59,780 bases of DNA, from the NCBI GenBank assembly GCA_017617575.1, contig JAFZVY010000139.1, positions 1-59,780 on the forward strand, written 5' to 3'. A model generated the notes under the pieces. It was not told where the DNA came from, made no database searches, and worked only from the letters and a program-made list of their open reading frames with translations. The first letter of the stretch is position 1. Every line of letters begins with the position of its first letter. The position numbers and the translations under genes were made by a program. Of this stretch, positions 6,712 to 39,928 are shown one piece after another. This DNA is from Bacteroidaceae bacterium (GTDB taxonomy: Bacteria > Bacteroidota > Bacteroidia > Bacteroidales > Bacteroidaceae).

Positions 6712-6779
6712 TTACTTAATTAGTTAGTTATGTCCTTCCTTCGTCCTATCCCCTGAGGACAGATGGGTAGTGTCTATGA

Positions 6780-6958
6780 AATGAGGCAGGTCTTCTGACT
6801 TCGTCCTTTGTAAAAACGCCTTCCCAACACACCCTGTACCCATCGGATGCAGAAGTCAGTGGCACCTTGCTTTTACCAAGAAAAAAAGGACTTACAGCAG
6901 CAGGGACTGTTCAGGATTCTCACCCGATTCCCTTTTAATCATAAGTATGAACCTCTTT
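6780..6958 (-). promoter_or_regulatory. cobalamin riboswitch 1
   Basis: On the minus strand the hallmarks occur in order: GGTGAGAATCCTGAACAGTC, CTGCTGCTGTAA, GCCACTG, GGGAAGGC and the B12 box AGTCAGAAGACCTGCC (complement at 6785-6801). A promoter box TAATTTTGC lies just upstream (complement at 6965-6973), giving a transcript that starts with the aptamer. It ends about 70 bp before the receptor ATG at 6711, so B12 should repress translation or transcription of the receptor/DUF4374 operon. Confidence 0.95.
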
Positions 6959-7100
6959 CGGTCAGCAAAATTACAACAAATATATTATTTGGCAATACTC
7001 TTTGACAAAATAATTTAGCGTGTTTCATTTTGTCCTACTTTCTTGCATACTTCATTCTCCCTAAAATACGCTTTTGGATAGTGACTTCCCTCACGACCTA

Positions 7101-8870: not shown

Positions 8871-9545
8871 ATGAAACTAAGAGACAGTCTTAAAATTATC
8901 GCTATTGCCATGTTGATAGAAAGCATAATAGGAGCTTTCAGGCAACCTTATATGGATAACTTCGACTCACTTTACGAGAGCTTCGGACAAGTAGCAACCA
9001 TAGTAAAGTTCTACTACATGGATGTTTCCGTATGGTTGCAGCTTCTCCTCTATCTCCTCTTCTCATGGCACATAGTATGGATGGGCTCAAGAATACCGAG
9101 CAGCAATTTTAGTTCGTACTTCGTACTCGATGCCATCGTGGCTATTGCCAACGCCATAGTCATCACCATGTCATACGACTATGCGGTATATGGCTTCTTC
9201 CTCAAGATTATTGCCGAGGCAGCAGGTATCGTTACTTGCTTCTGTGCAGGATGGGCTTTGTACAAGGACCTTCACATCAAGCCTGTACAGACAATATGCC
9301 TCTCATACTGGGTACTCTCACTCCGTCACCTGCTCTATTGCATGGTACTTGCCATCACAGGTTTCGTTTACGGTCTTGACGGACTTTCATCCGATGCGTT
9401 GCGTAACCACACCACCATCATGATTGCGTGGGGTCTTGTCGTTCCGTTGCTTCTCGTAAGCCGAGTGATGCTCTTCGTGGGAGTAAAGAACCTGAAGATT
9501 AATGCTGACATAAAAGAGAAAGAGCAAGAGTTAAAAGTAGTGTAA
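8871..9545 (+). CDS. six-helix integral membrane protein, unknown
   Basis: 224 residues from ATG 8871. About six hydrophobic helices: around residues 6-22 (LKIIAIAMLIESIIGAF), 50-70 (VWLQLLLYLLFSWHIVWMG), 80-100, 110-132, 145-168 and 185-207, ending in a charged tail (INADIKEKEQELKVV). No motif I recognise. Its 3' end overlaps the end of the convergent cbiB gene by 47 bp. Own promoter, so monocistronic. The family is not recognised; function unknown. Confidence 0.75.
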   Translation: MKLRDSLKIIAIAMLIESIIGAFRQPYMDNFDSLYESFGQVATIVKFYYMDVSVWLQLLLYLLFSWHIVWMGSRIPSSNFSSYFVLDAIVAIANAIVITMSYDYAVYGFFLKIIAEAAGIVTCFCAGWALYKDLHIKPVQTICLSYWVLSLRHLLYCMVLAITGFVYGLDGLSSDALRNHTTIMIAWGLVVPLLLVSRVMLFVGVKNLKINADIKEKEQELKVV

Positions 9546-10518
9546 CTACCATCAATATCTCCGCAACGAGCGATATGCTGACCGACAACAGCATATCGCT
9601 CGTTGTCAGTTTACGGTCATTAGTACCAATATAAGGCTTGTAGAAATACTGCCCGAAGTAATTGTGAGGACCGCCAAAGCGACAGTTTAGTATTCCTGCC
9701 AAGGCTGCCTCTGGCCATCCCGAGTTAGGCGAAGCATGTTTAGGACCATAGAAACCTATGAAGCCAAGGTAATACTTCCAACCCAAGCCATTGCCCTTAA
9801 CCATTCCCACCATACACATCACTTTATAAGCCAAGAGTATGAGGAATGCGGTAAGACGTGCAGGAACGTAATTGGCTACATCGTCTATCCTTGCCGCCCA
9901 ACAGCCGAAATCCTTGTAACGCTCGTTCTGATAGCCTATCATGGAGTCGAACGTGTTTATCATCTTGTAAGCCACCATACCCGGGACGCCAAGGATGAAG
10001 AGCCAAAAGAGAGGGGCAACGACTCCGTCGGACAGGTTCTCGGCAAGCGTCTCAAGGGCTGCCGTTCGGCATTCCTGAGCAGACAACTCGCTCGTGTCCC
10101 TTCCCACTATACGAGCCACCTGTTTGCGTCCGTCCTCCACGCTCCTGTCCATAGCCTCAAACACCATCCTCACCTCCTTACGCAAGGTATGGCCGGCAAG
10201 GCAATAGAAGATAAGCAAGGAGCTGAACACGATGTAAGGCAACTCAACCAGCCATACATTACCCAAAAGATGACTTGGCATGAGACTTGCCACAAGAGGA
10301 GTGAGCGATGCGAGGCACAGGCTCACGAGACAATACACAAGTATGATGCTTGCAACGGAAAACAACGCTCCCTTTGCCATGCGATGATTCCCCTTGTTGA
10401 GCATACGCTCACCCATGGCAATCCACCGTCCCATCCACACTATAGGATGTGGCAGGCGTTCTGGGTCACCAAAGACAAAGTCGAGAAACCAACCGAAAAG
10501 CAAAGGGAGAGTTGCCAT
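9499..10518 (-). CDS. cbiB: adenosylcobinamide-phosphate synthase CbiB
   Basis: 339 residues. CbiB amidates adenosylcobyric acid with (R)-1-aminopropanol phosphate at the inner membrane, late in cobalamin synthesis. Diagnostic sequence: FGWFLDFVFGDPERLPHPIVWMG at the N terminus, the internal ETLAENLSDGVVAPLFW and YKMINTFDSMIGYQNERYKDFG, and SPNSGWPEAALAG near the C terminus; four or five membrane helices. Full length for the family. It lies apart from the main cob cluster, about 4 kb from cobD. Its last codons overlap the convergent gene ending at 9545 and contain a near-perfect 17-bp inverted repeat. Next upstream gene is a BACON-like lipoprotein only 9 bp away (stop at 10528), so co-transcription with it is possible. 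Confidence 0.95.
   Translation of the reverse strand: MATLPLLFGWFLDFVFGDPERLPHPIVWMGRWIAMGERMLNKGNHRMAKGALFSVASIILVYCLVSLCLASLTPLVASLMPSHLLGNVWLVELPYIVFSSLLIFYCLAGHTLRKEVRMVFEAMDRSVEDGRKQVARIVGRDTSELSAQECRTAALETLAENLSDGVVAPLFWLFILGVPGMVAYKMINTFDSMIGYQNERYKDFGCWAARIDDVANYVPARLTAFLILLAYKVMCMVGMVKGNGLGWKYYLGFIGFYGPKHASPNSGWPEAALAGILNCRFGGPHNYFGQYFYKPYIGTNDRKLTTSDMLLSVSISLVAEILMVVTLLLTLALSLLCQH
9564..9605. terminator. 17-bp hairpin inside the 3' end of cbiB
   Basis: Arms 9564-9580 and 9589-9605 (CAACGAGCGATATGCTG and complement) with an 8-nt loop. It lies 19 bp past the stop of the rightward membrane protein gene, yet encodes residues TTSDMLLSVSISLV of CbiB. It probably ends the rightward transcript; no T-run follows. 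Confidence 0.5.
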
Positions 10519-14284: not shown

Positions 14285-15295
14285 TCACAAAAACAGCCAC
14301 TCTCCAATAGCATCTATGAGTTCGTCGTTCTCCTCTTTTTCCTGTACGGCAATACGGAAAAATGACGAATCAAGTCCTTCAAAATTGCCTGCATCACGAA
14401 TAAGTATGCCATGTTGAGTGGCAAGGTACTCCTTCAGGGAAGATGCTTTTCCCATCCTTAACTTGCACAACAGAATATGTGTGTCGGATGGCCATGTCTC
14501 TATGCAACCCAGTTTCTGAAGTTTCTCAGCCACCCTCTCACGTTCCGCAACGAGCGTGTCAACGTCAAGACGGTACTCATCCTCATGCGCAAGGAGGTAA
14601 TGACCTGCATCTATAGCAACCTGATTGACCGACCACGGCATTCGCTGAAGCCTTATGTTCTGAAGCAAAGCCTTGCTTGCCGTGATATAGCCGATGCGAA
14701 GTCCCGGAACGGCATACTCTTTAGTCATGCTATGAAGCATGATGACATTAGGCAATCCCACCGCTTCCTTTGGCGTAATCTGAGGCTTGAGGGTGAAAGG
14801 CGCATAACTTGCATCAAGCACAAAGATGACATCCTCATGTGCCTTGAAGCATTTCATCAACTCATCCTTATCTATTACGCTTCCCGTAGGATTATTAGGA
14901 TTGCACAACCACACCATCTGCGCACGCTCAGGTATCTGGTCGAGTGCATAGATGGAACATAGCGTGTGCTCGTGTATGCGACAGGCATCCGCATATTCGG
15001 AGAACGTAGGCATGAGTATTGCCGTCTTACTCCTTCGGAATGTCTGGGCAATAAAATATATTGCCTCTGTTGCGCCATTAGTCACACACACCTCGTCTGG
15101 CTTGATGCCAAGCATCATGGCAAGCTCTGCCTCCAGAGAGGTAGGTGAAGGCTCTGGATACGAAGCCACATTATCCAACTTATCTGCAAGATAACAATAC
15201 AATCCTTCATGGTCGAAGTGATTATACACATTTGAACTGAAATTTATACGTATATCCTTGTACCTATATACGTCATCTCCGTGACCGTTAAGCAT
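14285..15295 (-). CDS. cobD: L-threonine-O-3-phosphate decarboxylase CobD
   Basis: 336 residues from ATG 15295 (the in-frame TTG at 15301 is less likely). PLP-dependent fold-type I aminotransferase-like enzyme that makes the aminopropanol phosphate used by CbiB. Characteristic sequence: LNGHGDDVYRYKDIRINFSSN at the N terminus, YPEPSPTSLEAELAMMLGI, VTNGATEAIYFIAQTF, VWLCNPNNPTGSV and the PLP lysine in SMTKEYAVPGLRIGY. It lacks the zinc-binding C-terminal extension of some enterobacterial CobD proteins. It follows cobQ by about 28 bp on the same strand, so co-transcribed. A histidinol-phosphate aminotransferase is the alternative, but the N-terminal motif and context favour CobD. Confidence 0.9.
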   Translation of the reverse strand: MLNGHGDDVYRYKDIRINFSSNVYNHFDHEGLYCYLADKLDNVASYPEPSPTSLEAELAMMLGIKPDEVCVTNGATEAIYFIAQTFRRSKTAILMPTFSEYADACRIHEHTLCSIYALDQIPERAQMVWLCNPNNPTGSVIDKDELMKCFKAHEDVIFVLDASYAPFTLKPQITPKEAVGLPNVIMLHSMTKEYAVPGLRIGYITASKALLQNIRLQRMPWSVNQVAIDAGHYLLAHEDEYRLDVDTLVAERERVAEKLQKLGCIETWPSDTHILLCKLRMGKASSLKEYLATQHGILIRDAGNFEGLDSSFFRIAVQEKEENDELIDAIGEWLFL

Positions 15296-15323
15296 AAGCA
15301 AAAGCCCCTAAAATAATGAATTA

Positions 15324-16880
15324 TTAATTCTTAATTATCTCATATATCTTATTTATATCCACATATCGCCTTACGTGTTCTGCAAGTTGGTCATACTGCC
15401 TATCCTTGAACTCCTCGGCAGTCATGACAGGTGCTTCGCTGGCACGCTTGGCAAGAGGACTTACCACATAATCTATGACAGCAGGATTGTCAAGTATGCC
15501 ATGAACATAAGTACCAAGGCACTTGTCCTGAATATAAACGAGAGGTAACTCTTCTTCCGCAAACTGTTCGTGGCGTTCTCCATCCCCATAGAGTGGGAGG
15601 GCTGGTGAGAGGGTCTGCATCTTCTTCCTTGTCCTTCCCTGATGAATCTCATATCCCTTGCAAGGCTTACCGTCGAACTCGAACTCTACCTGTTGCGTCA
15701 CCTTATCGGCTGTCATAACCGTCTCAAGAGGCAGGATGCCAAGACCTGGGAGACAAGGCACACTACCTTCCACGCCATCGGGGTCGCTCACCATCTGCCC
15801 GAGCATCTGATAGCCACCACATATACCTATGACGGTCTTACCATCCTTGTGCGCACGTATTATTGCTTGTGCCACCCCATTGCGACGAAGCTCGCCAAGG
15901 TCGTCAAGCGTTGCCTTCGTACCCGGAAGGATGATGATGTCCGCCTTCTCTATATCCTTTATATTATTTGTATAGAAAAGATTCACTCGCTCGTCTCTCT
16001 CAAGGATGTCAAAATCCGTGAAGTTGGAGATATGTCTAAGCAAGATAACCGCCACCTGCACTTTACGGCATAACTCGTATTGTGGTGACTCATTCCCCTC
16101 ACCCTCGAGGGAGGTCGGGAGGGGGGCCTTCCTTTTCCTATCAAGTTCCACGCTATCCTCTTCCTCTATGACAATATCCTTGAACATAGGAACAACACCA
16201 AGGACAGGCACTCCACATAGTTCCTCCATCATCCTTCGTCCTTCGTCAAAGAGACGTAGGTCGCCACGAAACTTATTGATGATAATACCCTTTATCCTTG
16301 CCTTATCCTCTGGTGTCTGCAACATGATACTTCCATACACGCTGGCAAACACGCCACCACGGTCGATGTCTGCCACAAGTATGACATCTGCATCAGCATG
16401 ACGTGCCATAGGCATATTGACAAGGTCAGAATCACGCAGATTTATCTCCGACACACTTCCTGCACCCTCCATGACGATGGGATTATACTTGACAGCAAGA
16501 CGGTCGAAAGCATCGTTTACCGCCAGCCTCAGCTCTTCCCTACCCTCCTTACGGAAATAGTCGTAAGCAGAGCGGTTACCAATAGGCTTGCCGTTGAGCA
16601 CAACCTGAGTGGTATGTTCCGAGTTAGGTTTCAGGAGCAAAGGGTTCATGTCTGTATGTGGAGCCAGTCGTGCCGCCTCTGCCTGTACGGCTTGTGCACG
16701 TCCAATCTCATATCCCTCAGGTGTGGCATACGAGTTGAGAGCCATATTCTGCGCCTTGAACGGAGCAGGATGATAGCCATCTTGTAGAAAGATACGGCAA
16801 AGAGCCGTGGCAAGCACGCTCTTTCCCACGTCACTACCCGTTCCCACCAGCATCACAGGATGTAATCGTTGTTCTGTCAT
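15324..16880 (-). CDS. cobQ: cobyric acid synthase CobQ/CbiP with repeat-derived inserts
   Basis: 518 residues. Glutamine-dependent amidation of the b, d, e and g carboxyls of adenosylcobyrinic acid a,c-diamide. N-terminal ATPase-like domain with P-loop GTGSDVGKS (13-21) and FKAQNMALNS; C-terminal class I glutamine amidotransferase domain with nucleophile C354 in GICGGYQMLG and H460 in GTYVHGILDN. The linker (residues about 251-264) reads APLPTSLEGEGNES and is encoded by a G/C-rich repeat (16092-16128) of the type seen between genes here; a second repeat-like stretch, LSPALPLYGDGE (about 424-435), precedes the catalytic His. Both lie outside the catalytic motifs, so the enzyme is probably active. 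Confidence 0.95.
   Translation of the reverse strand: MTEQRLHPVMLVGTGSDVGKSVLATALCRIFLQDGYHPAPFKAQNMALNSYATPEGYEIGRAQAVQAEAARLAPHTDMNPLLLKPNSEHTTQVVLNGKPIGNRSAYDYFRKEGREELRLAVNDAFDRLAVKYNPIVMEGAGSVSEINLRDSDLVNMPMARHADADVILVADIDRGGVFASVYGSIMLQTPEDKARIKGIIINKFRGDLRLFDEGRRMMEELCGVPVLGVVPMFKDIVIEEEDSVELDRKRKAPLPTSLEGEGNESPQYELCRKVQVAVILLRHISNFTDFDILERDERVNLFYTNNIKDIEKADIIILPGTKATLDDLGELRRNGVAQAIIRAHKDGKTVIGICGGYQMLGQMVSDPDGVEGSVPCLPGLGILPLETVMTADKVTQQVEFEFDGKPCKGYEIHQGRTRKKMQTLSPALPLYGDGERHEQFAEEELPLVYIQDKCLGTYVHGILDNPAVIDYVVSPLAKRASEAPVMTAEEFKDRQYDQLAEHVRRYVDINKIYEIIKN
16092..16128. repeat. G/C-rich repeat inside cobQ
   Basis: CCCCTCACCCTCGAGGG followed by AGGTCGGGAGGGGGGCC: same composition and order as intergenic units at 53980-54029 and 54041-54090. 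It is translated in frame as the interdomain linker of CobQ. Confidence 0.65.
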
Positions 16881-17377: not shown

Positions 17378-17486
17378 AAGCGAATGTTTTTATTTCGTTG
17401 GTAAAAATACGAACATTATGTCGAATGTCCAAACTTTTCAGTTTCCACTTTTCACTTTTCACATATAATTGCTTATCTTTGCCAAC
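17378..17486. promoter_or_regulatory. divergent promoter region of the cob cluster
   Basis: 109 bp separate the leftward FHA-cobQ-cobD genes from the rightward cbiJD-cbiL-cbiA genes. The rightward box TTATCTTTGCC is at about 17473-17483, only a few bases before the ATG at 17487, implying a very short leader. No cobalamin riboswitch is visible here, so unlike the uptake operons the biosynthetic genes are not under one at this site. Confidence 0.5.
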
Positions 17487-19367
17487 ATGATTCTAATATT
17501 CGGAGGAACAACGGAAGGACGCATCGCAGCAGAGACTCTTGATGATGCAGGCAAACCATTCTACTACAGCACCAAGTCGGGGCTACAGGAGGTGGCCATG
17601 CGCCATGGCATACAGATTACGGGGGCCATGACGCAGGACGACATCGTGGACTTCTGCAAGGAGCACGCAATAGTGTGCATGGTGGATGCCGCACATCCCT
17701 TTGCCGAGAACCTGCACAAGACGATAGCCGAGGCTGCACGTAAGACGAGCATACCTGTCATACGACTTCTGCGTCCCGCATCGGGAAGGATAAATTGCGC
17801 AACCTATTGCAAAACATACGACGAGGCGATAGCCGCAATGGAGCAACAAGGCGTGAAACGACTCCTCGCACTCTCAGGAGCAAACACCATAAGCAAGCTG
17901 AAGCCTTTCTGGACACATCACGATACATACTTCCGCATCCTTCACAGGAAGGAGAGTATTGATATCGCAGACAGGAACGGATTGCCAAAGAACCGTCTCC
18001 TTTTCTATAATGAGGACAACGAACTGCCATCCGTAGAGGACGAGACTGCCATGATGCAGAGCGTACATGCCGACGCAATCATAACCAAGGACTCAGGCGA
18101 GAACGGAGGAATGCCAGCCAAGACGGAGGCGGCACATCGTTTAGGGTTAAGAATATTCGTCATCGAGCCACCTGTCTTGCCAGCCAGTTTCATCATAGTT
18201 ACAGGCAAGTACACGTTACGAAGGGCTATCGAAGGGCTATCGAAGGATTTCTTCCCTCTCCGCACAGGAATAACGACGGGTGCCTGCGCCACCGCAGCAA
18301 CCAAGGGCGCACTCCTTGCACTCTTAACTGGCGAGCCACAAGAGGATGTCAGCTTTGCACTTCCAGATGGCGAGGTACTCACCATATCCATAACTGACAC
18401 CATCCTTGGCAATGGCTATGCTGAATGTATAGTTACAAAGGATGCTGGCGACGACCCAGACGTGACAAACAGATGCAGGATTCACTCACGCATAAGTAGA
18501 GGAACACAGGGCATCTGCTTTATTGGTGGCGAAGGTGTTGGTACCGTCACCCTTCCCGGTCTCGGTCTTGAGGTTGGCGGTCCTGCCATCAACAACACCC
18601 CACGCCTTATGATGACCAACGAGATAAGAGCCATAACGGACGAAGACTTTGACGTGACCATATCCGTGGAGGGTGGCGAGGAACTTGCACAACGCACATT
18701 CAACTCCAAGGTAGGTGTGGTAGGAGGCATAAGCATCATCGGTACTTCTGGCATTGTCCACCCTCTCAGCAACGAGGCTTTCATTCAGAGTATGCGACGA
18801 GAGATAGAGGTGGCAAAAGCAATAGGATGTCAACACCTCGCCTTTGTTTCTGGAAAGAAAGCGGAGGAACAATTACGACAAAGCAAGGCCCCCCTACTCC
18901 CAAAGGGGGCGGCTATCCAGGACAATGGGAATGGAGCAAATGATTCACTTACGCTCCCTTTTGAGAGAGAAAGCAACAATTCCTCATTCCTAATTCCTAA
19001 TTCCTCATTAAAACCTCATTCCTCATTAAGATATATCCACTACGGCAATGCCATAGGAGAGGCACTGAAGGCTGCTTATGAAATAGGGTTCCGTAAAGTG
19101 ACACTCGGCATAATGATAGGTAAGGCCGTGAAACTGGCGGAGGGAAACCTCGACACCCACTCACATAAGGTGACTATGAACAAGGACTTCCTCAAGTCGC
19201 TGGCAGGTGACGATGCCGACAAGATAAACGGAATAACACTTGCAAGGGAACTGTGGGACATCATGCCACAATCATTCTTTGACAAGATAAGGAACGAATG
19301 CTACAAGCATTGCCGAAGTGTGTTCCCAGAGGGAGAACTTGACATTATGTTAATTAAGGACAAGTAG
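17487..19367 (+). CDS. fused precorrin-6A reductase / C1-methyltransferase, CbiJ-CbiD
   Basis: 626 residues from ATG 17487. Residues 1-250 are CbiJ/CobK (MILIFGGTTEGR, STKSG, DAAHPFAENL, IITKDSGENGG), the NAD(P)H-dependent precorrin-6A reductase. Residues about 255-626 are CbiD (RTGITTGACATAATKGALLALL, NNTPRLMM, THSHKVTMN), which methylates C1 using SAM in the anaerobic pathway. Fusion of consecutive activities is known in this phylum. Residues about 467-514 (KAPLLPKGAAI ... NNSSFLIPNSSLKPHSSLR) are an insertion encoded by interspersed repeats. It sits before YIHYGNAIGEALKAA, in a loop where CbiD proteins normally have only a short connection. Confidence 0.93.
   Translation: MILIFGGTTEGRIAAETLDDAGKPFYYSTKSGLQEVAMRHGIQITGAMTQDDIVDFCKEHAIVCMVDAAHPFAENLHKTIAEAARKTSIPVIRLLRPASGRINCATYCKTYDEAIAAMEQQGVKRLLALSGANTISKLKPFWTHHDTYFRILHRKESIDIADRNGLPKNRLLFYNEDNELPSVEDETAMMQSVHADAIITKDSGENGGMPAKTEAAHRLGLRIFVIEPPVLPASFIIVTGKYTLRRAIEGLSKDFFPLRTGITTGACATAATKGALLALLTGEPQEDVSFALPDGEVLTISITDTILGNGYAECIVTKDAGDDPDVTNRCRIHSRISRGTQGICFIGGEGVGTVTLPGLGLEVGGPAINNTPRLMMTNEIRAITDEDFDVTISVEGGEELAQRTFNSKVGVVGGISIIGTSGIVHPLSNEAFIQSMRREIEVAKAIGCQHLAFVSGKKAEEQLRQSKAPLLPKGAAIQDNGNGANDSLTLPFERESNNSSFLIPNSSLKPHSSLRYIHYGNAIGEALKAAYEIGFRKVTLGIMIGKAVKLAEGNLDTHSHKVTMNKDFLKSLAGDDADKINGITLARELWDIMPQSFFDKIRNECYKHCRSVFPEGELDIMLIKDK
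18886..19030. repeat. composite repeat insertion inside cbiD
   Basis: Contains a C/G palindrome (CCCCCCTACTCCCAAAGGGG), then runs of the unit ATTCCTCATTCCTA. The second part matches one arm of the inverted repeat inside cbiA at 20873-21030. Reading frame is preserved. Confidence 0.7.
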
Positions 19368-19477: not shown

Positions 19478-20194
19478 ATGAATCAAGAATCACAAATAGC
19501 TTTCCTCTCTCTTGGCACGAGTGCAGACAACGTAACCATCGGATGCGCCAAGATGATAGACGAGGCAGACAAGATATATTGCTTTGGCTCACACGGCAAG
19601 TCACATTGTGCCGATATCATAGGAGACATCACCAGCCTTGACAAGGTGGAGGTGATAGACATCCCCATGTCAAAGAACAGGACACAGGTGATGGCTGTGT
19701 ACGAAAGCCTTGCCTCACACATAGCAAACGAGCATGGCAAAGGAATGAAGATTGCCGTTGCCACAGAGGGCGACACAGGTCTCTTTGCCACCACCCACTA
19801 TGTGATGGACAAACTCACAGAGCGTGGCATCCCTTGTCGACAACATGCTGGCGTACCTGCATTCATTGAAGCGGCAGCAATAGCAGGACTTCACCTTGCC
19901 AAACTCAATGAGAGACTCATCGTCATACCCGGAACAACGACAGCCGAGGAACTGGCGCAACTCGTAAACAATGGAACTAACGTGGTAATAATGAAACTAT
20001 CCATGGCAACAGATGCCGTGCACAGGTGCATCTGCGCACATCCAGAGTTCCAATACCACTATTTCCGCAACATAGGAATGGAAAGCCAGGAACACATAAG
20101 TGACACAACCATACTAAGGGACTTGGACTTTCCGTACTTTTCGCTGATGATAATAGCCGCCCATACCACAAAGGGAGCTAAATTTATGAATTAA
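19478..20194 (+). CDS. cbiL: precorrin-2 C20-methyltransferase CbiL
   Basis: 238 residues. SAM-dependent tetrapyrrole methylase that adds the C20 methyl to (cobalt-)precorrin-2. Class III methylase signatures: FLSLGTSADNVT at the N terminus, VATEGDTGLFATTHYV (SAM loop), CRQHAGVPAFIEAAAIAGL (substrate and SAM site) and IPGTTTAEELAQLV. The product assignment follows the resemblance to CbiL/CobI and the cluster; another methylase of the family (CbiF, CbiH) is possible but less fitting. Separated by 110 bp from cbiJD and by 4 bp from cbiA. Confidence 0.82.
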   Translation: MNQESQIAFLSLGTSADNVTIGCAKMIDEADKIYCFGSHGKSHCADIIGDITSLDKVEVIDIPMSKNRTQVMAVYESLASHIANEHGKGMKIAVATEGDTGLFATTHYVMDKLTERGIPCRQHAGVPAFIEAAAIAGLHLAKLNERLIVIPGTTTAEELAQLVNNGTNVVIMKLSMATDAVHRCICAHPEFQYHYFRNIGMESQEHISDTTILRDLDFPYFSLMIIAAHTTKGAKFMN

Positions 20195-20198
20195 GATA

Positions 20199-21572
20199 AT
20201 GGCTTCATTTCTCATAGCAGCCGCAACATCCAACAGCGGCAAGACAACAATAATGATGGGACTCCTCCGTGCCTTGAGGAACAGAGGACTGAAGGTGCAA
20301 CCCTTCAAGTGCGGTCCTGATTATATTGACCCGATGTTTCATTCCATGGCATCGGGCAATGACTCCGTGAACCTCGACACTTGGATGGCAAGCCCAGAAC
20401 AGATGGCAAACATGTTCCGCACCTACGCCAAGGATGCTGACGTATGCGTGGTGGAAGGTGTGATGGGACTGTACGACGGCTACGACAAGTGGCATGGAAG
20501 TAGTGGTGAGATTGCAGCCATGCTCGACATCCCCGTGATACTCGTGGTCAACGCCAAGAGTGCCGCCTACTCCGTTGCCCCACTCATATATGGATTCAAG
20601 AATGCTCCTATCATACCTTGCGAGGATGGCACACGCAAGCCAGTCAACATAGCAGGAGTGATATTCAACATGGTGGCATCAGAGAGCCACTTCAAGTACC
20701 TCAAGGAAGCTTGTGACGACATAGGCGTCCCTTGTCTCGGCTACGTAGCAAAGAATCCTGCCCTCGTTGTTCCAAGTCGCCACCTCGGACTCACCATCAC
20801 AGCAAAGGAAGAGACGGAACGCCTCATCCAGCTTGCTGCCGAGGAAGTTGAGAGGGGGGTAAACATGGAGTATTTATTTAATGAGGAATTAGGAATGAGG
20901 AATGAGGAATTGTTACTCTCTCGCCCAATTCCAATACCATCATCAAATAATGCAATATCACTCGACGAAAAGACAAACCATTCCTCATTCCTAATTCCTA
21001 ATTCCTCATTAAAAACCAATTCCTCATTAAAATCTGTCGCCATCGCTCGCGACGAGGCCTTCAACTTCATCTATCGCAACAATATTGATGTGTTGAGGAG
21101 CATGGGTGAGATAAGGTTCTTCTCCCCACTCCGTGACAAGGAGTTGCCAGAGTGCGACCTGCTCTACCTGCCTGGCGGTTATCCAGAGCTGTTTGCAGAC
21201 GACCTCGTGAAGAATGAGCAGATGCGACAAAGCATAAGACGATTTGCGGAGAACGGAGGACACATATATGCTGAATGTGGTGGATTCATGTATCTTTGCA
21301 ATCGAATAGATGATGCGCCTATGTGTGGTGTTTTCCCATTCATTGCAACGATGGAAGGCGCACATCTGCACCTCGGCTATCGTCTGATGGAACGTGACGG
21401 GGCTGTCATCAAGGGGCACGAGTTCCATTACTCATGCATAAAACCGATAGTGGAAATGCCAGACAGCATCACCGTTGAGCGATGCCAACGCTCGGCAAAG
21501 GGCACACCAGTAGATACTGCCATCTATCATTACAAGAATGTAACAGCTGGTTACACCCACTGGTACTTCTGA
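20199..21572 (+). CDS. cbiA: cobyrinate a,c-diamide synthase CbiA with repeat insertion
   Basis: 457 residues. Amidates the a and c carboxyls of cobyrinate. N-terminal P-loop SNSGKTTIMMGLLRAL, FKCGPDYIDPMFH and EGVMGLYDG; C-terminal amidotransferase with LYLPGGYPE, nucleophile C360 in YAECGGFMYL, and H in GHEFHYS. Residues about 226-278 (NEELGMRNEELLLS ... NHSSFLIPNSSLKTNSSLK) are encoded by an inverted repeat and sit in the linker between the domains. Starts 4 bp after cbiL. Without the insert the length would match the family, so activity is probably kept. A strong terminator follows at 21610. Confidence 0.94.
   Translation: MASFLIAAATSNSGKTTIMMGLLRALRNRGLKVQPFKCGPDYIDPMFHSMASGNDSVNLDTWMASPEQMANMFRTYAKDADVCVVEGVMGLYDGYDKWHGSSGEIAAMLDIPVILVVNAKSAAYSVAPLIYGFKNAPIIPCEDGTRKPVNIAGVIFNMVASESHFKYLKEACDDIGVPCLGYVAKNPALVVPSRHLGLTITAKEETERLIQLAAEEVERGVNMEYLFNEELGMRNEELLLSRPIPIPSSNNAISLDEKTNHSSFLIPNSSLKTNSSLKSVAIARDEAFNFIYRNNIDVLRSMGEIRFFSPLRDKELPECDLLYLPGGYPELFADDLVKNEQMRQSIRRFAENGGHIYAECGGFMYLCNRIDDAPMCGVFPFIATMEGAHLHLGYRLMERDGAVIKGHEFHYSCIKPIVEMPDSITVERCQRSAKGTPVDTAIYHYKNVTAGYTHWYF
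20873..21030. repeat. inverted-repeat element inside cbiA
   Basis: Left arm near 20879-20911 (AATGAGGAATTAGGAATGAG) and right arm near 20980-21010 (CATTCCTCATTCCTAATTCC) are near-complementary over about 32 bp, with an extra CAATTCCTCATTAAAA unit after it. About 158 bp, a multiple of three within error, open in the cbiA frame. Looks like a palindromic mobile repeat. Confidence 0.75.
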
Positions 21573-27003: not shown

Positions 27004-27035
27004 GCTCATGAGACAAGCGGGCTTATCTCATGAGC
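27004..27035 (-). terminator. terminator of the second riboswitch operon
   Basis: 10-bp arms GCTCATGAGA / TCTCATGAGC, followed on the minus strand by CTTTTTATTTTT. The stop codon of the BtuF-like gene lies inside the hairpin. Confidence 0.85.
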
Positions 27036-28213
27036 TTATAGTACTTAGGAGTATAGTGCGGGAGAATGTCAGGATGGAAAGCCTTGACAAAATCAGCAAG
27101 AAGAATATGCGGCTCTACCGGTGATAATTCACGGTAAGGCGTAGATGCAACATTGCAGAAGATGACGTGCTTGTTCTTGAACGCCTTGAGGTCGGCATAT
27201 CGTGCATCCTCTGCCTCAAGTTCGCGAAGTGTAAACTCACCATCGAAGCTTCCATCTATCTGCCAATAGTCAGCATTGACAGCCTTGGCATAGACACTCT
27301 CGAAGTCGAGCGTAAGACCGCCAGCCTCCTCGTGTTCCTTCATAATGTAGTCAACACCAGCGTCCTTGAAAAGCTGCGCCATGTAACTATTGCCACCCAT
27401 AACATACCAACCGTCACGTATCTGGCGACCAGAGATAATGGTTGGCAGATGTGTGCCACTTGCAGAGTTGGTACGAGACGTTGTTCCTGCATCAGCAGAA
27501 TGCTGAGCCTCATCACGAAGGGAAGTCTGCACCTCTGCCTTCAAAGTGTTGTACTTCGTCTCGATGTCAGCAAAGACAGCGTTGGCACGACGTGGCTCGC
27601 CAGTAAGAAGGCCTATTAGCTTAATCCATTCTGCCTGACCAAGTGGATTGGTCTCTCTGTAGCCATGATGCGGAATGAGTGGAATGCCACAATCCTTGAG
27701 TGCCTCATAACCTCCATGCTTGCTGGTAGATATGAAGATGTAGTCGGGACGTGAGGCAATGACAGCCTCGATGTCGAAGTTGCCTTCCTTACCTATCCTG
27801 ACAGTCTTACCTTCCTTCTCCTGCTGCTTAATGCGAGGGTTGAAAAGATGACGAATGCTCGTCATACCCACTACTCGTTCTTCCAGTCCGAGTGCTTCAA
27901 AATTGCCAAGCTGAAGGGCTGTCATGCACACAAAGCGCGACTTTGGCTCAGTGATAACGAGTTCAATAGGCTTAGTGTGCGACGCAGGGTCAGGATTGGA
28001 TATGGTGACGTGTATGCCATCTTTCTTGTAATCGACACGCAGTCCCTTTGCGTACCTTATATATACAGTATCGCTGAACTCCGATGCCTTGGCAAGGATG
28101 GAATCCTGCTGACGGAAAAGAGAGTCGGCACTCATCCCTTCGGAGGGTGCCGACTTGTTGCCGCAAGAGACAATTGCAAGTGCGGCTATAAGTATCAATA
28201 TTATTTGCCTCAT
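27023..28213 (-). CDS. BtuF-like substrate-binding lipoprotein
   Basis: 396 residues. Lipoprotein signal MRQIILILIAALAIVSC with Cys 17, followed by GNKSAPSE, which lacks an acidic surface-export run, so it is probably tethered in the periplasm. The body is a class III periplasmic binding protein (FVCMTALQLGNFEALGLEERVVGMTS, EAVIASRPDYIFIST, ADYWQIDGSF, VIFCNVASTPYRELSPVEPHILLADFVKAFHP), the fold used for vitamin B12, haem and siderophores. It is the last gene of the operon headed by riboswitch 2, 14 bp after the CbiK-like gene. No permease or ATPase (BtuCD) follows, so these must be encoded elsewhere. A polar insert near residues 230-250 (AQHSADAGTTSRTNSASG) is unusual. Confidence 0.85.
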   Translation of the reverse strand: MRQIILILIAALAIVSCGNKSAPSEGMSADSLFRQQDSILAKASEFSDTVYIRYAKGLRVDYKKDGIHVTISNPDPASHTKPIELVITEPKSRFVCMTALQLGNFEALGLEERVVGMTSIRHLFNPRIKQQEKEGKTVRIGKEGNFDIEAVIASRPDYIFISTSKHGGYEALKDCGIPLIPHHGYRETNPLGQAEWIKLIGLLTGEPRRANAVFADIETKYNTLKAEVQTSLRDEAQHSADAGTTSRTNSASGTHLPTIISGRQIRDGWYVMGGNSYMAQLFKDAGVDYIMKEHEEAGGLTLDFESVYAKAVNADYWQIDGSFDGEFTLRELEAEDARYADLKAFKNKHVIFCNVASTPYRELSPVEPHILLADFVKAFHPDILPHYTPKYYKLMR

Positions 28214-28227
28214 AATGCTGTTGCACC

Positions 28228-29343
28228 CTATTCTTCTGGGTACATTGAGTGGTAAACCTCAGTCAACTCGATTGGGTTCTTTGTATGCTCAATCCATACG
28301 TTGAGTATCTTGCTGAAGTCAAGGAGACCACGAAGCTCACCATCAGGGAGGTCATGAGTTGAAATCTTTTCGTACTGTGCTACGTTCTTGAAATACTCAA
28401 ACCAAGAATTCTCTTCTGAGTCTGGCTCTTCTGCATTCCAATACTCTTCACCCTGTCCGTACATATCGTTGTGAGCGTGGTCACCAGCAATTGACATGAG
28501 TGCGTTGAGCACAATCTCCTTTGATTCTGGGAATGCACCATTCTCCTTAATACGTGCCCATACATCTTCCTTCTTGTTTGCATTCTGATCAACAGTACCT
28601 ACGAAGTAGTTGTGGCTGAACTTCTGAAGCTCTGTCTCAAGCTGCTCGTAACGTACATTTGCCTTATAGATGTCGTAGTCATGCTCCTCGCTTGATGGGT
28701 TACCATGTCCCATGAAAGCAACTGTCTTTGTCTTTGCATCTTCCTTAAACTCCTCGTTGAGGATTGAAGCTACGTTCTTAACATCATTCTCGCTGTTAAG
28801 AAGTGGAGTTCCGAGACGTACTTCAACTTCTGAAAGGTATTCGTCATCAAGGTCACCAAGGTAGTTGTTACCAAAGTCCTTGATATAGTTAATAACACGA
28901 CCATACTCTTCACCAGGGATTACCTGAAGTGACTGAACAGTAATCTGCTTGTACTTAACAGCACCAAAAGCATGCAACCAGAAGTTAGGTGCATAGTAGT
29001 TGCGCTGTTCTGCACCGTCATCCTTGTGCTCCCATGCTGCTGCACGGTTAATACAGATGGCTGATGAGTAAGAGAGATAAACATCGCAGTCTGGGAATGC
29101 CTGCTGGTAAGCCTTGACTGTATTGTCAAAAGAGTTGAACGCAGCCTGCCATGTTGAACCGAAAGCCACGAGGAGGATTGCCTTGTCACTCTTCTTCTGT
29201 GCGCTAACCTGAGCGTCAACGGCACGCTGGTAGCGAGTGTAGTTGTCAAGAACTTCATCCTTGTCGTCGTCAGAGCAGGATGTTACGGAAAAAGTTGTCA
29301 ACACTGCAAGAGCAGCGATGAACAATGATTTAATCTTCTTCAT
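28228..29343 (-). CDS. surface-type lipoprotein of the CbiK cobaltochelatase family
   Basis: 371 residues. Signal peptide with lipobox SVTSC (Cys 23) and the acidic run SDDDKDE, as in surface-exported lipoproteins. From residue 54 the CbiK fold begins: AILLVAFGSTW, ITVQSLQVIPGEEYGRV (residues 134-150), RLGTPLLNSENDV, FMGHG with H213, and SIAGDHAHNDM with H289. H213 and H289 align with the metal-binding histidines of Salmonella CbiK, so the active site looks complete. CbiK inserts cobalt into sirohydrochlorin in the cytoplasm; an outer-membrane form resembles IhtB/FetB of Porphyromonas gingivalis, encoded beside a TonB receptor. The gene overlaps the receptor gene by 14 bp (ATG before its stop), so translation is coupled. 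Confidence 0.92.
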   Translation of the reverse strand: MKKIKSLFIAALAVLTTFSVTSCSDDDKDEVLDNYTRYQRAVDAQVSAQKKSDKAILLVAFGSTWQAAFNSFDNTVKAYQQAFPDCDVYLSYSSAICINRAAAWEHKDDGAEQRNYYAPNFWLHAFGAVKYKQITVQSLQVIPGEEYGRVINYIKDFGNNYLGDLDDEYLSEVEVRLGTPLLNSENDVKNVASILNEEFKEDAKTKTVAFMGHGNPSSEEHDYDIYKANVRYEQLETELQKFSHNYFVGTVDQNANKKEDVWARIKENGAFPESKEIVLNALMSIAGDHAHNDMYGQGEEYWNAEEPDSEENSWFEYFKNVAQYEKISTHDLPDGELRGLLDFSKILNVWIEHTKNPIELTEVYHSMYPEE

Positions 29344-31456
29344 AGTTGTTTTGTTTTTTGATGTTAGTATTTATTTTTCTTCCTTGATGGAACTTTATAC
29401 TGAATGAAGCATACACCATAGTTGGTGGTGTAGTAGTACCAAGATGATAAGGTCTTGGCGTACGGTCCACATGATTGAAAATATTGTCAACTCCGGCTTC
29501 CACCTTATATGTAATAGAGGCGGACTGTTTACCTATCTCGTGGGAAGTGTTCAACTTCCACACTTGATAGCGTTTACCATTACCATCGTTCTGGTAGTAA
29601 CGCATACTACTACCCTTTGAATAGAGTCCCACGCCCAGTCGGTACGACCGTCCGAAGCGGTGACGCCAAGTGACATAGGTATTCCATCGCCAGTGTGCCA
29701 TACCGTCAATTGTAACACGTACAAGTCGCTCCGACTTGTCGTCGTAAGCGTGGGCTTCCGTGTCGAGATAGCTAACATTTCCACCGACTGCAAGGTCTGA
29801 CGTCACGTTGTATGCGAGGTTCATGTCCACTCCACACGAGCGAGCATCCTCCATATTCTTGTACATTCGTGGCACAAGGTCTGCACTACCGTCACCATAA
29901 TATTGCACATCGCCCTCTGGCACCATACTTAGAGGTACATTGACGAGCGTTATCATATTGTCAAGCCAGTTGGCATAAGCCGTTGCAGAAACGTTGAACC
30001 TTGACGTACGGTACTCAACACCACCTGTGACGTAGTTGCTAGTCTGAGCCTTCAGCCCCTTGTTGCCCATATAATAAAAGGTCTTTGCACCCATTTGACG
30101 CAAATAATGGTAGTTGAGTTCCTTAGGCGTAGGTGCCTTGAAGCCCTGACTCCATCCAAGACGAACACGCCAATCACCCATGCTGAACATAGTGCTCACC
30201 TTCGGCGTGGCACGGAAACCGAAGCCTCCATTTTCATTGAGTCGAAGTCCTGCTGTCACGTTGAGCCAAGCAACAGGGTTAAGTTCATCCTGCACATAAA
30301 GAGCGGCAGTCCAGTCGTCTGCTTCGCCTCCACGCACTCGCATCGGAGCGTTGAGGTAGTCATAACGATACTCCATACCTGCGTTCAACGTGTTATATGG
30401 AAGATGGAACACACCCTTGAGCACAGCCATTGTCCTCTGCTGGTCGCTTTGCAAGTTACGTTGTCCTGCGAAATACGGGAAGTAGTTCGTAAATCGTCCG
30501 TTAGGCTCATAACCATCCTCCAACGTCGTAGCTGTATATTTGTAGTAATAGGCATGCTTGTTCCAATCCACATCGAGCGTTATGGCATCCCCATCTTTCA
30601 ACTTCCATTTGCCACCAATGGCGGCACTCGCATTACGGTACATGAGGTCGTAGGTATAGACATCGCACGAAGGATGATTGCCATCTTGCGGACGGTTGAT
30701 TATCTTACCATAGTACGAGCCTTCGGCATACGCCTCAAGCTTTTGACTTGCCGTATAGGTGACGCGCTCCGCAACCTGCCAGTTAGTATAACGATTCACA
30801 GTCTTGTTCTTCGAGTCATGCAGAAGCTTAGCCTCAGCATATTCGTCCGATGTATTCTGCCATCCGTCTGTGTGCTGCGTCTGGAAGTTGGTATAGGAGT
30901 TCCAGCGCCCGAGACTTACACCCACGCCATTATGCTGTCTGATGTCGTTGTACGTGCCGTATCGTGTCGTGTTCTCCAAGAACACACCTCCCTCCCTATG
31001 CTTTCGAGTGATGATGTTCACCACTCCTGCTATGGCATCACTACCATAAAGGGCACTCTGCGCACCTTTCACAATCTCAATGCGCTCAATATTGTGAGGG
31101 TCGATAAGTCCGAGGTCGTTCTCACCACCATTGTCGCCATGCAATCTCCTACCATCAATGAGAATGAGTACGTAACCATTGCCCAGACCACCCAGTTGCA
31201 TTTGGCTACCCATATCCCCTTCGTTGAAGGCAAACGATGCCGTGAGCCCTGAGAGAATGTCCTCCAAAGAACGTCCCCCATAGCTATCAAGCACCTTGCG
31301 TGAGATTACCTCTGTCTGTACAGGAGCATCCTTCAACAGGCGTTCCGTACCCGTTCCAGTCACTACGACCTCACGTAGCGTATCGCTCTTTTCCTGAGCA
31401 CCACATACGCAGACAGAGCCCGCCACGAGGACGAGAACCGTCATCAATCTTTTCAT
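29330..31456 (-). CDS. BtuB-like TonB-dependent receptor
   Basis: 708 residues from ATG 31456 (an upstream in-frame start at 31510 lies near the riboswitch and is rejected). Signal peptide MKRLMTVLVLVAGSVCVCGA, TonB-box-like DTLREVVVTGTG, plug about residues 25-150 with YVLILIDGRRLHGD and RIEIVKGAQSALYGSDAIAGVVNIIT (BtuB/FepA/CirA type), then a 22-strand-type barrel ending VYASFSIKF before a short polar tail. First gene of the riboswitch 2 operon with the CbiK-like and BtuF-like lipoproteins. Ligand: cobalamin or another corrinoid; a tetrapyrrole such as haem is the alternative. Confidence 0.9.
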   Translation of the reverse strand: MKRLMTVLVLVAGSVCVCGAQEKSDTLREVVVTGTGTERLLKDAPVQTEVISRKVLDSYGGRSLEDILSGLTASFAFNEGDMGSQMQLGGLGNGYVLILIDGRRLHGDNGGENDLGLIDPHNIERIEIVKGAQSALYGSDAIAGVVNIITRKHREGGVFLENTTRYGTYNDIRQHNGVGVSLGRWNSYTNFQTQHTDGWQNTSDEYAEAKLLHDSKNKTVNRYTNWQVAERVTYTASQKLEAYAEGSYYGKIINRPQDGNHPSCDVYTYDLMYRNASAAIGGKWKLKDGDAITLDVDWNKHAYYYKYTATTLEDGYEPNGRFTNYFPYFAGQRNLQSDQQRTMAVLKGVFHLPYNTLNAGMEYRYDYLNAPMRVRGGEADDWTAALYVQDELNPVAWLNVTAGLRLNENGGFGFRATPKVSTMFSMGDWRVRLGWSQGFKAPTPKELNYHYLRQMGAKTFYYMGNKGLKAQTSNYVTGGVEYRTSRFNVSATAYANWLDNMITLVNVPLSMVPEGDVQYYGDGSADLVPRMYKNMEDARSCGVDMNLAYNVTSDLAVGGNVSYLDTEAHAYDDKSERLVRVTIDGMAHWRWNTYVTWRHRFGRSYRLGVGLYSKGSSMRYYQNDGNGKRYQVWKLNTSHEIGKQSASITYKVEAGVDNIFNHVDRTPRPYHLGTTTPPTMVYASFSIKFHQGRKINTNIKKQNNYEED

Positions 31457-31527
31457 CAGTTTATTGATATGAGACACAATAGTACGGAGACCTATTCCTG
31501 GGCACACCATACGTTAAGTAAAGAGGA

Positions 31528-31703
31528 AGAGGCAGGTTTTCTGACTCGCCATTGAATGGACACCTTCCCAAGGAGATGATACTCCTCAGTGGCTATAGTG
31601 ACCGTCCATTCCATAAATAATGGCACACAGCTGCAGGTACAGTTCAGGTTTCCCACCTGATTCCCTCGCACGGGGCATACTGGCTGTAATCCCCGTTCAC
31701 CAA
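31528..31703 (-). promoter_or_regulatory. cobalamin riboswitch 2
   Basis: Minus strand shows GGGAATCAGGTGGGAAACCTG, CTGCAGCTGTG, GCCACTG, TTGGGAAGG and the B12 box AGTCAGAAAACCTGCC (complement 31531-31546). Promoter box TTACCTTTGCC (complement 31710-31721) lies just upstream. The aptamer ends about 70 bp before the receptor ATG at 31456. Confidence 0.95.
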
Positions 31704-31848
31704 ATCCTCGGCAAAGGTAACATGAATAATCGTAAACACCAAACAAGTGTAACTAAAAATTCTCATACAACAACATTACGACAATACAAGTCGACACTTC
31801 CCTCACACGAAGTCAAATATTCCCGACTTCCCTACCCTACAGAAAAGC

Positions 31849-38143: not shown

Positions 38144-39928
38144 ATGCCATCACCATTTCTTGAGGTCCTCGGACTTACCAAACGCATAGGTCATCGTGTA
38201 CTCTTCGAAGACATATCCTTCACGATAAACGAGCGTGAACACATAGGACTCATCGCCAAGAACGGAACGGGAAAGTCAACCCTCCTCAGCATTATAGCTG
38301 GTCACGAGGGACATGATGGCGGTAAGATGATATTCAGGAACGACCTGAAGATTGGCTATCTTGAACAGAGTCCAAAGATTGACAAGTCGGAACTGGAAGG
38401 AAAGAGCGACGAATACATACAGCTATACAAGCAGTACCTCACTCAGATGAAGATAACCGAGGAGGAGGCAAGTCGTCCCGACACACAGCTGTCGGGTGGA
38501 CAGGTCAAGCGCATAGCACTTGCAAGGGTGCTGGCATCACAGCCAGACATGCTCATCCTCGACGAGCCTACCAACCACCTCGACCTTGAGATGATTGAAT
38601 GGCTTGAGAACTTCCTCTCCCGTACTACGATGGCTTTGCTCATGGTCACTCACGACCGATATTTCCTCGACCGCATCTGTTCCACCATCATCGAGATGGA
38701 CGACATGCGTCTCTACACATACAAGGGCAATTACGCCTACTATCTGGAGAAACGTCAGGAGCGACTTGAGAACATGAATGCCTACATAGCCCGTGCCAAT
38801 AACCTCTATCGTACGGAACTGGAGTGGATGCGCTCCACGCCATGTGCACGTTCAAGCAAGGCTCGCTACCGCATAGATTCGTTCTATGAGCTGGAGAAGG
38901 TTGCCAAGACACGCATCACGGACGAGAAGGTAAAGCTGGAGATGAAGGGCACGTACATCGGCTCAAAGATATTTGAGGCAAAGGATGTATGCAAGTCTTT
39001 CGGCGACAAGGTTATCCTCAAGGACTTTGAATATAACTTCACCCGTTACGAGAAGATGGGTATCGTGGGAAACAACGGTACGGGAAAATCCACATTCGTG
39101 AAGATGCTCCTCGGACTTGAGCCTCACGACAGCGGAACAATCGAGATTGGCGAGACCGTCCGCTTCGGACATTATAGTCAGGAGGGAATGAAGTTCCGCG
39201 AAGACCAAAAGGTCATAGATGCTGTACGCGACATAGCCGAGTACGTGGATATGGGTGGTGGCGAGAAGCTTTCCGCAAGTCAGTTCCTCCAGCATTTCCT
39301 CTTTCCTCCGGAAGAGCAGCATAGCTACATATACAAGCTGAGTGGTGGCGAACGCCGAAGACTGTACCTCTGTACCGTCCTGATGAAGTCGCCTAACTTC
39401 CTCATTCTCGACGAGCCGACTAATGACCTCGACATCGTGACGCTCCAGATACTTGAGGAGTACCTGAAGAACTTCAAGGGATGTCTCATCATCGTTAGCC
39501 ACGACCGCTACTTCATGGACAAGGTTGTTGACCACCTCCTCGTGTTCAACGGTAATGGTGACATACGTGACTTCCCTGGTAACTACTCACAATATCGTGA
39601 GTGGAAGATAGCCAAGGAAAAGGAAGAGAAGGCAAAGCTTGAAGCATCAGTCAAAGGTAGCAGCTCCCAAGCTGCATCCCAGCCAGCGAGTGACAACAGA
39701 AATGCCAATCGCGCCCGCAAACTCACATTCAAGGAGAAGAAGGAACTGGAACAACTGGAGAAAGACCTTGAGACGCTTAATAAGGAGAAGGAAATCATCG
39801 AGGCTGCCCTCTGTGGTGGTACGACATCTGTTGAAGAAATAACACGTATGTCGAAACGCCTTCCTGAGCTGAACGACGAAATAGACGAGAAAGAGATGCG
39901 CTGGCTCGAACTTAGTGAATTTGCTTAG
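38144..39928 (+). CDS. ABC-F family ATPase, Uup-like
   Basis: 594 residues. Two ABC domains with no membrane segment: Walker A LIAKNGTGKST (about 38-48) and GIVGNNGTGKST (about 310), signatures LSGGQVKRIALAR and LSGGERRRLYLCT, Walker B MLILDEPTNHLD and FLILDEPTNDLD. A C-terminal coiled coil (FKEKKELEQLEKDLETLNKE, about 530-560) is preceded by a Ser/Ala/Asn linker, as in Uup. ABC-F proteins act on ribosomes or DNA metabolism; an antibiotic-resistance subtype is less likely given the layout. A promoter box TAATTTTGCATT lies near 38111. Confidence 0.88.
   Translation: MPSPFLEVLGLTKRIGHRVLFEDISFTINEREHIGLIAKNGTGKSTLLSIIAGHEGHDGGKMIFRNDLKIGYLEQSPKIDKSELEGKSDEYIQLYKQYLTQMKITEEEASRPDTQLSGGQVKRIALARVLASQPDMLILDEPTNHLDLEMIEWLENFLSRTTMALLMVTHDRYFLDRICSTIIEMDDMRLYTYKGNYAYYLEKRQERLENMNAYIARANNLYRTELEWMRSTPCARSSKARYRIDSFYELEKVAKTRITDEKVKLEMKGTYIGSKIFEAKDVCKSFGDKVILKDFEYNFTRYEKMGIVGNNGTGKSTFVKMLLGLEPHDSGTIEIGETVRFGHYSQEGMKFREDQKVIDAVRDIAEYVDMGGGEKLSASQFLQHFLFPPEEQHSYIYKLSGGERRRLYLCTVLMKSPNFLILDEPTNDLDIVTLQILEEYLKNFKGCLIIVSHDRYFMDKVVDHLLVFNGNGDIRDFPGNYSQYREWKIAKEKEEKAKLEASVKGSSSQAASQPASDNRNANRARKLTFKEKKELEQLEKDLETLNKEKEIIEAALCGGTTSVEEITRMSKRLPELNDEIDEKEMRWLELSEFA

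Follow-up and report, generated by a model that had tools for sequence, protein, structure and literature searches.

In the 59,780-nucleotide stretch of Bacteroidaceae DNA analysed here (GenBank assembly GCA_017617575.1, contig JAFZVY010000139.1; hereafter the window), a cobalamin (B12) riboswitch leads an operon for a TonB-dependent outer-membrane receptor, a CbiK-family chelatase made as a lipoprotein, and a periplasmic-binding lipoprotein. Our preferred explanation, to which we assign a probability of roughly 0.55, is that this operon is a precursor-salvage device for B12 synthesis: it would take up a sirohydrochlorin-type precursor, insert cobalt into it outside the cytoplasm, and feed the product to CbiL. 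We arrive at this reading from the genomes in which the chelatase gene occurs and from the clade to which it belongs.

The whole operon lies on the minus strand. Its leader is an RF00174 aptamer at 31514-31719 (score 75.3 bits, gathering score 31.5, E 8.9e-17, with the full model, 1-189, matched), followed by the receptor at 29330-31510 (PF07715 Plug and PF00593 beta-barrel), whose true start is probably an inner ATG near 31456 that, judged by eye, would give it a signal peptide. Next come the chelatase at 28228-29343 (PF06180, E 8.3e-36) and the periplasmic-binding lipoprotein at 27023-28213 (PF01497, E 2.2e-20); the latter has no acidic export signal after its cysteine (CGNKSAPS). The operon includes no BtuG-, BtuH- or BtuJ-type lipoprotein, its two lipoproteins being those of PF06180 and PF01497. 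An earlier note on this DNA had described the same order of elements, the chelatase's Cys23 and histidine motifs, and a 14-bp overlap coupling the chelatase gene to that of the receptor, and all of these were borne out: the overlap spans 29330-29343, and an overlap of 14 bp recurs in 18 of 34 other loci from the window's family (11-20 bp in 27 of the 34). Its names for the flanking proteins survive only in part. The "BtuB-like" receptor does have E. coli BtuB third by name among its best solved relatives (4e-13, over the plug), but Cir and PirA match better and the B12-receptor equivalogs fall far below their cut-offs (TIGR01779, 105 vs 599.7 bits; NF007926, 83.6 vs 836 bits). The "BtuF-like" lipoprotein fits at the level of PF01497, but no BtuF-specific match was found beyond that family, and its weak PDB matches are iron-complex and enterochelin binding proteins.

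The PF06180 match of the window chelatase spans positions 1-259 of the 262 in the profile. Residues E146, H213 (FMGHG) and H289 (AGDHAHNDM) are intact and align with the catalytic residues E89, H145 and H207 of Salmonella CbiK. All three are kept in 44 of the 44 lipoprotein members compared, which argues for chemistry rather than mere binding. With a score of 80 against a cut-off of 400, the protein does not earn the name of the NCBIfam equivalog NF047852; its nearest solved relative, of the same fold and the best match by both sequence and fold, is Porphyromonas gingivalis FetB (PDB 9b86). Cys23 is followed by SDDDKDE (CSDDDKDE), and all 35 CbiK lipoproteins in our family sample have two to five acidic residues in the seven positions after the cysteine (counted by eye and by script; signal peptides and lipoboxes were judged by eye, with no predictor). 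Judged in this way, the window chelatase bears a lipoprotein signal together with an acidic surface-export signal, and surface display is predicted. The sample holds 62 CbiK genes, and each of the 56 N-termini that we read carried a signal peptide or lipobox; the idea that we were seeing only a mislocalised housekeeping CbiK was rejected on that count.

The arrangement in the window is a conserved one. In all 34 other family loci, a receptor 37-69% identical to the window's lies directly upstream of the CbiK lipoprotein and an RF00174 riboswitch lies upstream on the same strand (35 of 35 with the window), at 2,314-2,554 bp from the CbiK match in 29 loci and 4.4-5.2 kb in five. Among the named loci (the best 80 of 545 relatives, the nearest being gut and rumen Bacteroidaceae and Bacteroidales), a related receptor is directly upstream of the chelatase in all 80, and the riboswitch was present in all four that we scanned, including those of Phocaeicola abscessus, Phocaeicola oris and Prevotella pectinovora, which are isolates in that set. 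The earlier note had suggested such a survey of receptor–CbiK pairs, and the outcome agrees with its proposal that the operon is under B12 control. Beyond the family, the riboswitch precedes the receptor in five of the six lipoprotein loci read; in the sixth (genome G283; G and L numbers are our handles for genomes and loci), the pair ends a same-strand run, cbiHC-cbiET-cbiGF-cbiL-receptor-chelatase. No such riboswitch was found within 12 kb upstream of six low-scoring secreted CbiKs on their contigs. Of the 34 family loci, 25 have Cbi or CobD genes no more than 7 kb downstream on the same strand, and 28 have them between -6 and +9 kb when both strands are counted; for the named loci, such genes were seen inside the 8-kb flanks of 64 of the 80. 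The gene next to the cassette in G063 and G045 encodes CbiL, the enzyme acting right after the chelatase.

The family sample comprises 121 genomes, which we searched for PF06180, RF00174, CbiD, HemC and SUMT; the counts are uncorrected for kinship, and several genomes are incomplete. PF06180 is present in 44 of them, and the loci read yielded the 35 CbiK lipoproteins, one per genome and the window's included. Lipoprotein and CbiD occur together in 34 genomes, the lipoprotein alone in one, CbiD alone in 11 and neither in 75 (Fisher p 2.4e-19), and nine genera hold both double-positive and double-negative genomes. Among the 76 CbiD-negative genomes, 75 lack the lipoprotein; in the remaining one, G025, the contig ends inside a second receptor, where congeners continue into cbi genes. 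The lipoprotein follows corrin-ring synthesis, not B12 use (the riboswitch is present in 119 of the 121 genomes) or haem need.

This distribution bears on a simpler alternative, namely that the CbiK lipoprotein binds B12, cobinamide or other corrinoids in the manner of BtuG, BtuH and BtuJ and hands them to the receptor with no chemistry involved. The riboswitch before every family copy favors such a role, as does the variety of corrinoid-binding lipoproteins reported from Bacteroides B12 loci (PMC10404256, PMC8941943, PMC12751083; here and below, papers are cited for those parts that were accessible). We nevertheless consider corrinoid capture unlikely, because riboswitches are near-universal while the gene is confined to corrin-ring makers, bar the broken contig of G025. 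In addition, the three catalytic residues are invariant in the lipoproteins though secreted copies decay in six of the same genomes, and one clade member that lacks a signal peptide has genes for sirohydrochlorin and cobalt as its neighbors (G198, below). The earlier note had proposed a corrinoid or a cobalt tetrapyrrole as the ligand, and either metal insertion or binding and passing on as the function. The link to a cobalt tetrapyrrole stands, and the genome evidence points to metal insertion, with a compound from earlier in the pathway (sirohydrochlorin or cobalt-sirohydrochlorin) in place of a corrinoid; binding a corrinoid and passing it on becomes the weaker option, since the gene follows ring synthesis and not B12 use.

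HemC was found in four of the 121 family genomes and SUMT above cut-off in three; within the 45 CbiD genomes each was found once, in both cases in G031. Weaker SUMT matches fall on other methyltransferases (CbiF and CbiH, for example), as in the window's own genome. Since the other 44 CbiD genomes have neither HemC nor SUMT, all but one of the 45 corrin makers seem to be without a way of making sirohydrochlorin, on which CbiK acts. The window's genome (G000, 86% complete) has no HemC and no SUMT above cut-off (HemA, HemB and HemD were not searched), and the same is true of kin that are 97-99% complete (G012, G056, G073, G088, G101 and G113). In G031 (contig C49, L064), the HemC and SUMT matches share one open frame of about 680 amino acids; the lipoprotein CbiK is kept there too, and no other genome of the family sample has both.

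A lack of HemC, seen in 117 of the 121 family genomes, would also suit a role in haem use of the sort put forward for P. gingivalis IhtAB/FetB, the chelatase either removing iron from haem or binding haem on behalf of the receptor. The nearest solved relative is, moreover, named a haem-binding protein. HemC is nearly always missing, yet every lipoprotein except the one on a broken contig is in a CbiD genome, and the operon is under a B12 riboswitch. P. gingivalis IhtB itself is reported not to be Fur-regulated and to change about twofold with iron and haem (PMC10913741). Because the lipoprotein gene tracks CbiD rather than the absence of HemC, we rejected haem as the main explanation and give it very little credence.

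Seventeen genomes have no CbiK besides the lipoprotein, and in six further genomes a second, secreted CbiK has lost the E/H/H catalytic residues that the lipoprotein there keeps; of the 19 places that match CbiX, 18 are CbiK genes. The lipoprotein is thus, judged by its residues, the sole intact chelatase of its class in at least 23 of the 35 genomes, G025 included (the second copy in G012 was not read, and CobN-type proteins, BtuS/HmuS, were not searched). These counts bear on a variant in which the receptor imports a metal-free precursor that the lipoprotein hands over, and cobalt is inserted by a periplasmic secreted CbiK or a CobN-type protein. Many genomes do have an additional secreted CbiK, with receptors and cbi genes close by at several loci, but the 17 genomes with no second copy and the six with only a decayed one make metallation elsewhere decidedly unlikely. 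The decayed secreted CbiKs (L009, L012, L016, L044, L045 and L046) are all without a riboswitch, and five of the six adjoin a gene that by eye resembles the one for an ABC-F-like ATPase at window positions 38144-39928; they may have a new role.

G198, a HemC-positive genome from another family of the same order, has a single CbiK, and this one starts without a signal peptide. It heads a gene run (L147, 9136-16834) that continues with CbiM, a CbiQ/ATP-binding cassette (ABC) protein fused to an NAD-binding precorrin-2-dehydrogenase-like (SirC-like) domain, HemA, HemC and CobA-HemD; no riboswitch was found at this locus. The G198 protein lies, on a long branch, inside the lipoprotein clade (47 rows, support 100/98), and a tree excluding it was rejected by the approximately unbiased (AU) test (p 0.0025, for a group defined after the tree had been seen). 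Its nearest solved relative is again FetB (E 5.6e-51). In the 1.19 Mb of G198 examined, we found CbiL, CbiE-T, CbiG-F, CbiJ-D, CbiB, CbiP and CobD, and did not find CbiH-C or CbiA. Sampled members of G198's own family, G283 and G355, have no HemC and do have the lipoprotein. By gene content, then, the G198 run and its HemC-less relatives indicate that the clade goes with cobalt and sirohydrochlorin in cells that make sirohydrochlorin and is exported in kin that do not make it, with G031, G194 and G354 as exceptions.

The CbiM/CbiQ cobalt transport genes beside the G198 enzyme could also be taken to mean that the chelatase fold is used in a surface protein that binds cobalt and supplies it to the receptor for corrin synthesis, which would agree with both the B12 control and the tie to corrin synthesis. 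Such a role leaves the source of the tetrapyrrole in HemC-negative genomes unexplained, and a free ion should need no TonB receptor and binding protein unless a cobalt complex is carried; we find it very unlikely.

Two stricter formulations failed. The lipoproteins do not make up one strict clade (AU test, p 1.1e-8), because the second copies of G002 and G081 as well as the signal-less G198 enzyme lie inside. In G002 and G081 (L010, L011), tandem CbiK genes follow one receptor, one encoding the lipoprotein and the other a copy whose signal is ambiguous in type (IPSCMAQ); these second copies keep the catalytic residues. A rule that an exported CbiK means a HemC-negative genome is false outside the family, where we read exported CbiKs in seven HemC-negative and three HemC-positive genomes. 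The three signal-less CbiKs outside the family are all in HemC-positive genomes. G282, from the same genus as the extra-family HemC-positive lipoprotein genomes, is also HemC-positive; its CbiK was not read.

If the operon is a salvage device, it might work as follows. When B12 is scarce, the riboswitch would permit expression, and when B12 is plentiful it would hold the operon down. The lipoprotein chelatase, displayed on the outer membrane, would capture a sirohydrochlorin-type tetrapyrrole shed by other bacteria and insert cobalt into it; the coupled TonB-dependent receptor would carry the cobalt tetrapyrrole across the outer membrane, and the PF01497 lipoprotein would pass it to an ABC importer. 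Cytoplasmic CbiL and the remaining corrin pathway would then complete the vitamin. In this scheme we infer which compound is the substrate, that the metal is cobalt, in what order metallation and import occur, that display is at the surface rather than the inner leaflet, which importer takes part and in which direction the riboswitch acts.

Several observations weigh against the salvage reading. The lipoprotein CbiK also occurs in HemC-positive genomes, G031 within the family and G194 and G354 outside it. The lipoprotein is missing from 11 CbiD genomes, of which eight have a secreted CbiK instead, and genera g3 and g12, two of the nine that hold double-positive and double-negative genomes, contain CbiD genomes both with and without it. 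Three CbiD genomes (G051, G068 and G084) have no CbiK at all, so another route exists. Haem binding and the insertion of manganese into protoporphyrin have been reported for FetB (PMC13402209), as has binding of the haemin-responsive regulator HaeR to the P. gingivalis iht promoter, more so under haemin limitation (PMC3764172); both favor haem use. The co-occurrence of lipoprotein and CbiD may be due in part to their being inherited together as one gene cluster.

Among known systems, the Bacteroides Btu loci differ in that their lipoproteins are corrinoid binders (the beta-propeller BtuG, the jelly-roll BtuJ), not chelatases. Bacteroides thetaiotaomicron takes up rather than makes corrins. Salmonella CbiK is cytoplasmic, and neither it nor Desulfovibrio vulgaris CbiK is known to have a lipid anchor or an outer-membrane receptor as partner. 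Both are of known structure (1qgo for Salmonella; 2xvx and 2xvz for D. vulgaris), the periplasmic location of the latter being taken from the PDB title. What the Btu loci (BtuB-BtuG, BtuH, BtuJ) share with the operon is a B12 riboswitch, a TonB receptor and lipoproteins with an acidic signal (PMC10404256, PMC8941943, PMC12751083). In gene content, the bacteria studied here look like the tetrapyrrole precursor salvagers described by Shelton et al. (2018; PMC6461909), with corrin synthesis and no early tetrapyrrole steps. Those salvagers differ in being defined by missing genes and in being mostly Firmicutes; use of 5-aminolevulinic acid was tested, and the accessible part of that paper names no dedicated uptake system.

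The P. gingivalis Iht/Fet system (IhtAB-CDE; FetB) is a cassette of the same type as the window's and differs in having ABC genes as part of the locus, whereas in the window only the binding protein is adjacent. The source of the corrin ring in P. gingivalis was reportedly called an enigma in 2000. All genes leading from precorrin-2 to cobalamin are described in that organism and none for making precorrin-2 (PMC4410737, PMC6461909), so that it too has corrin synthesis and not precorrin-2 synthesis. The earlier note had set the B12 control of the window's operon against Iht/Fet as a haem system, a contrast that is not supported in that form: a B12 riboswitch and a receptor homologous to BtuB, followed by a CbiK-family lipoprotein, have been reported at the iht locus as well (PMC3764172). 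Iht/Fet is treated in the literature as a system for haem, iron or manganese-porphyrin (PMC10913741, PMC13402209), the accessible parts giving it no role with B12 precursors. CbiK also appears in a table of a Tannerella forsythia vesicle paper, with a code C that may stand for a cytoplasmic prediction (PMC4604654). Among the literature titles searched, none proposed B12-precursor import by a receptor and a CbiK lipoprotein, most subscription papers being beyond reach. What we add is the candidate uptake and metallation device, the family-wide link to corrin synthesis and the comparison with G198; its novelty is not established.

The window itself encodes much of corrin synthesis. On the plus strand are a CbiJ-CbiD fusion for corrin ring synthesis (17469-19367; TIGR00312 319.9 bits, cut-off 200; TIGR00715 117.5, under 129.85), CbiL, the cobalt-factor II C20 methyltransferase (19478-20194; TIGR01467 115 bits, its best match, under 163) and CbiA (20199-21572; NF002204 438.9 bits, cut-off 254). 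On the minus strand are CbiP, cobyric acid synthase (15324-16880; NF001989 601.5 bits, cut-off 273), a CobD-like aminotransferase (14285-15301; TIGR01140 273.9 bits, just under 290.55) and CbiB (9499-10518; TIGR00380 211.8 bits, cut-off 165.9). By best match, some under curated cut-offs, the genome has CbiL, CbiH-C, CbiE-T, CbiG-F, CbiJ-D, CbiA, CbiP, CobD and CbiB, and by eye a CobU open reading frame. An AT-rich repeat (43-63 bp, in both orientations, 89-91% alike) lies in frame inside CbiJ-CbiD (18961-19037) and CbiA (20877-21038), adding the peptide SSFLIPNSSL to both; it resembles a small mobile palindromic element.

A second cobalamin riboswitch (6768-6971, minus strand; RF00174 95.9 bits) leads another receptor (4516-6711, minus strand; PF07715), whose relatives elsewhere stand beside secreted CbiK genes. 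Paired with it is a lipoprotein (CSDDDDDN; 3017-4396, minus strand) that matches no Pfam family and whose relatives stand beside the receptor. Relatives of the pair directly adjoin secreted CbiK genes in G066 (L049), G283 (L149) and G355 (L151), and the pair may be a parallel precursor route.

We suggest, tentatively, a wider possibility: that these Bacteroidales start making B12 outside the cell, where scavenged sirohydrochlorin receives its cobalt on the outer membrane before import by a dedicated, B12-controlled receptor, and that P. gingivalis Iht/Fet is the same device. If so, this would explain how P. gingivalis can have a corrin pathway without a start. For corrin-making Bacteroidales that have no early tetrapyrrole genes, the operon offers a testable candidate for the way in which the ring is obtained. 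It also gives reason to re-examine proteins now assigned to haem uptake, and predicts a traffic in a B12 precursor between the microbes of the gut, rumen and mouth.

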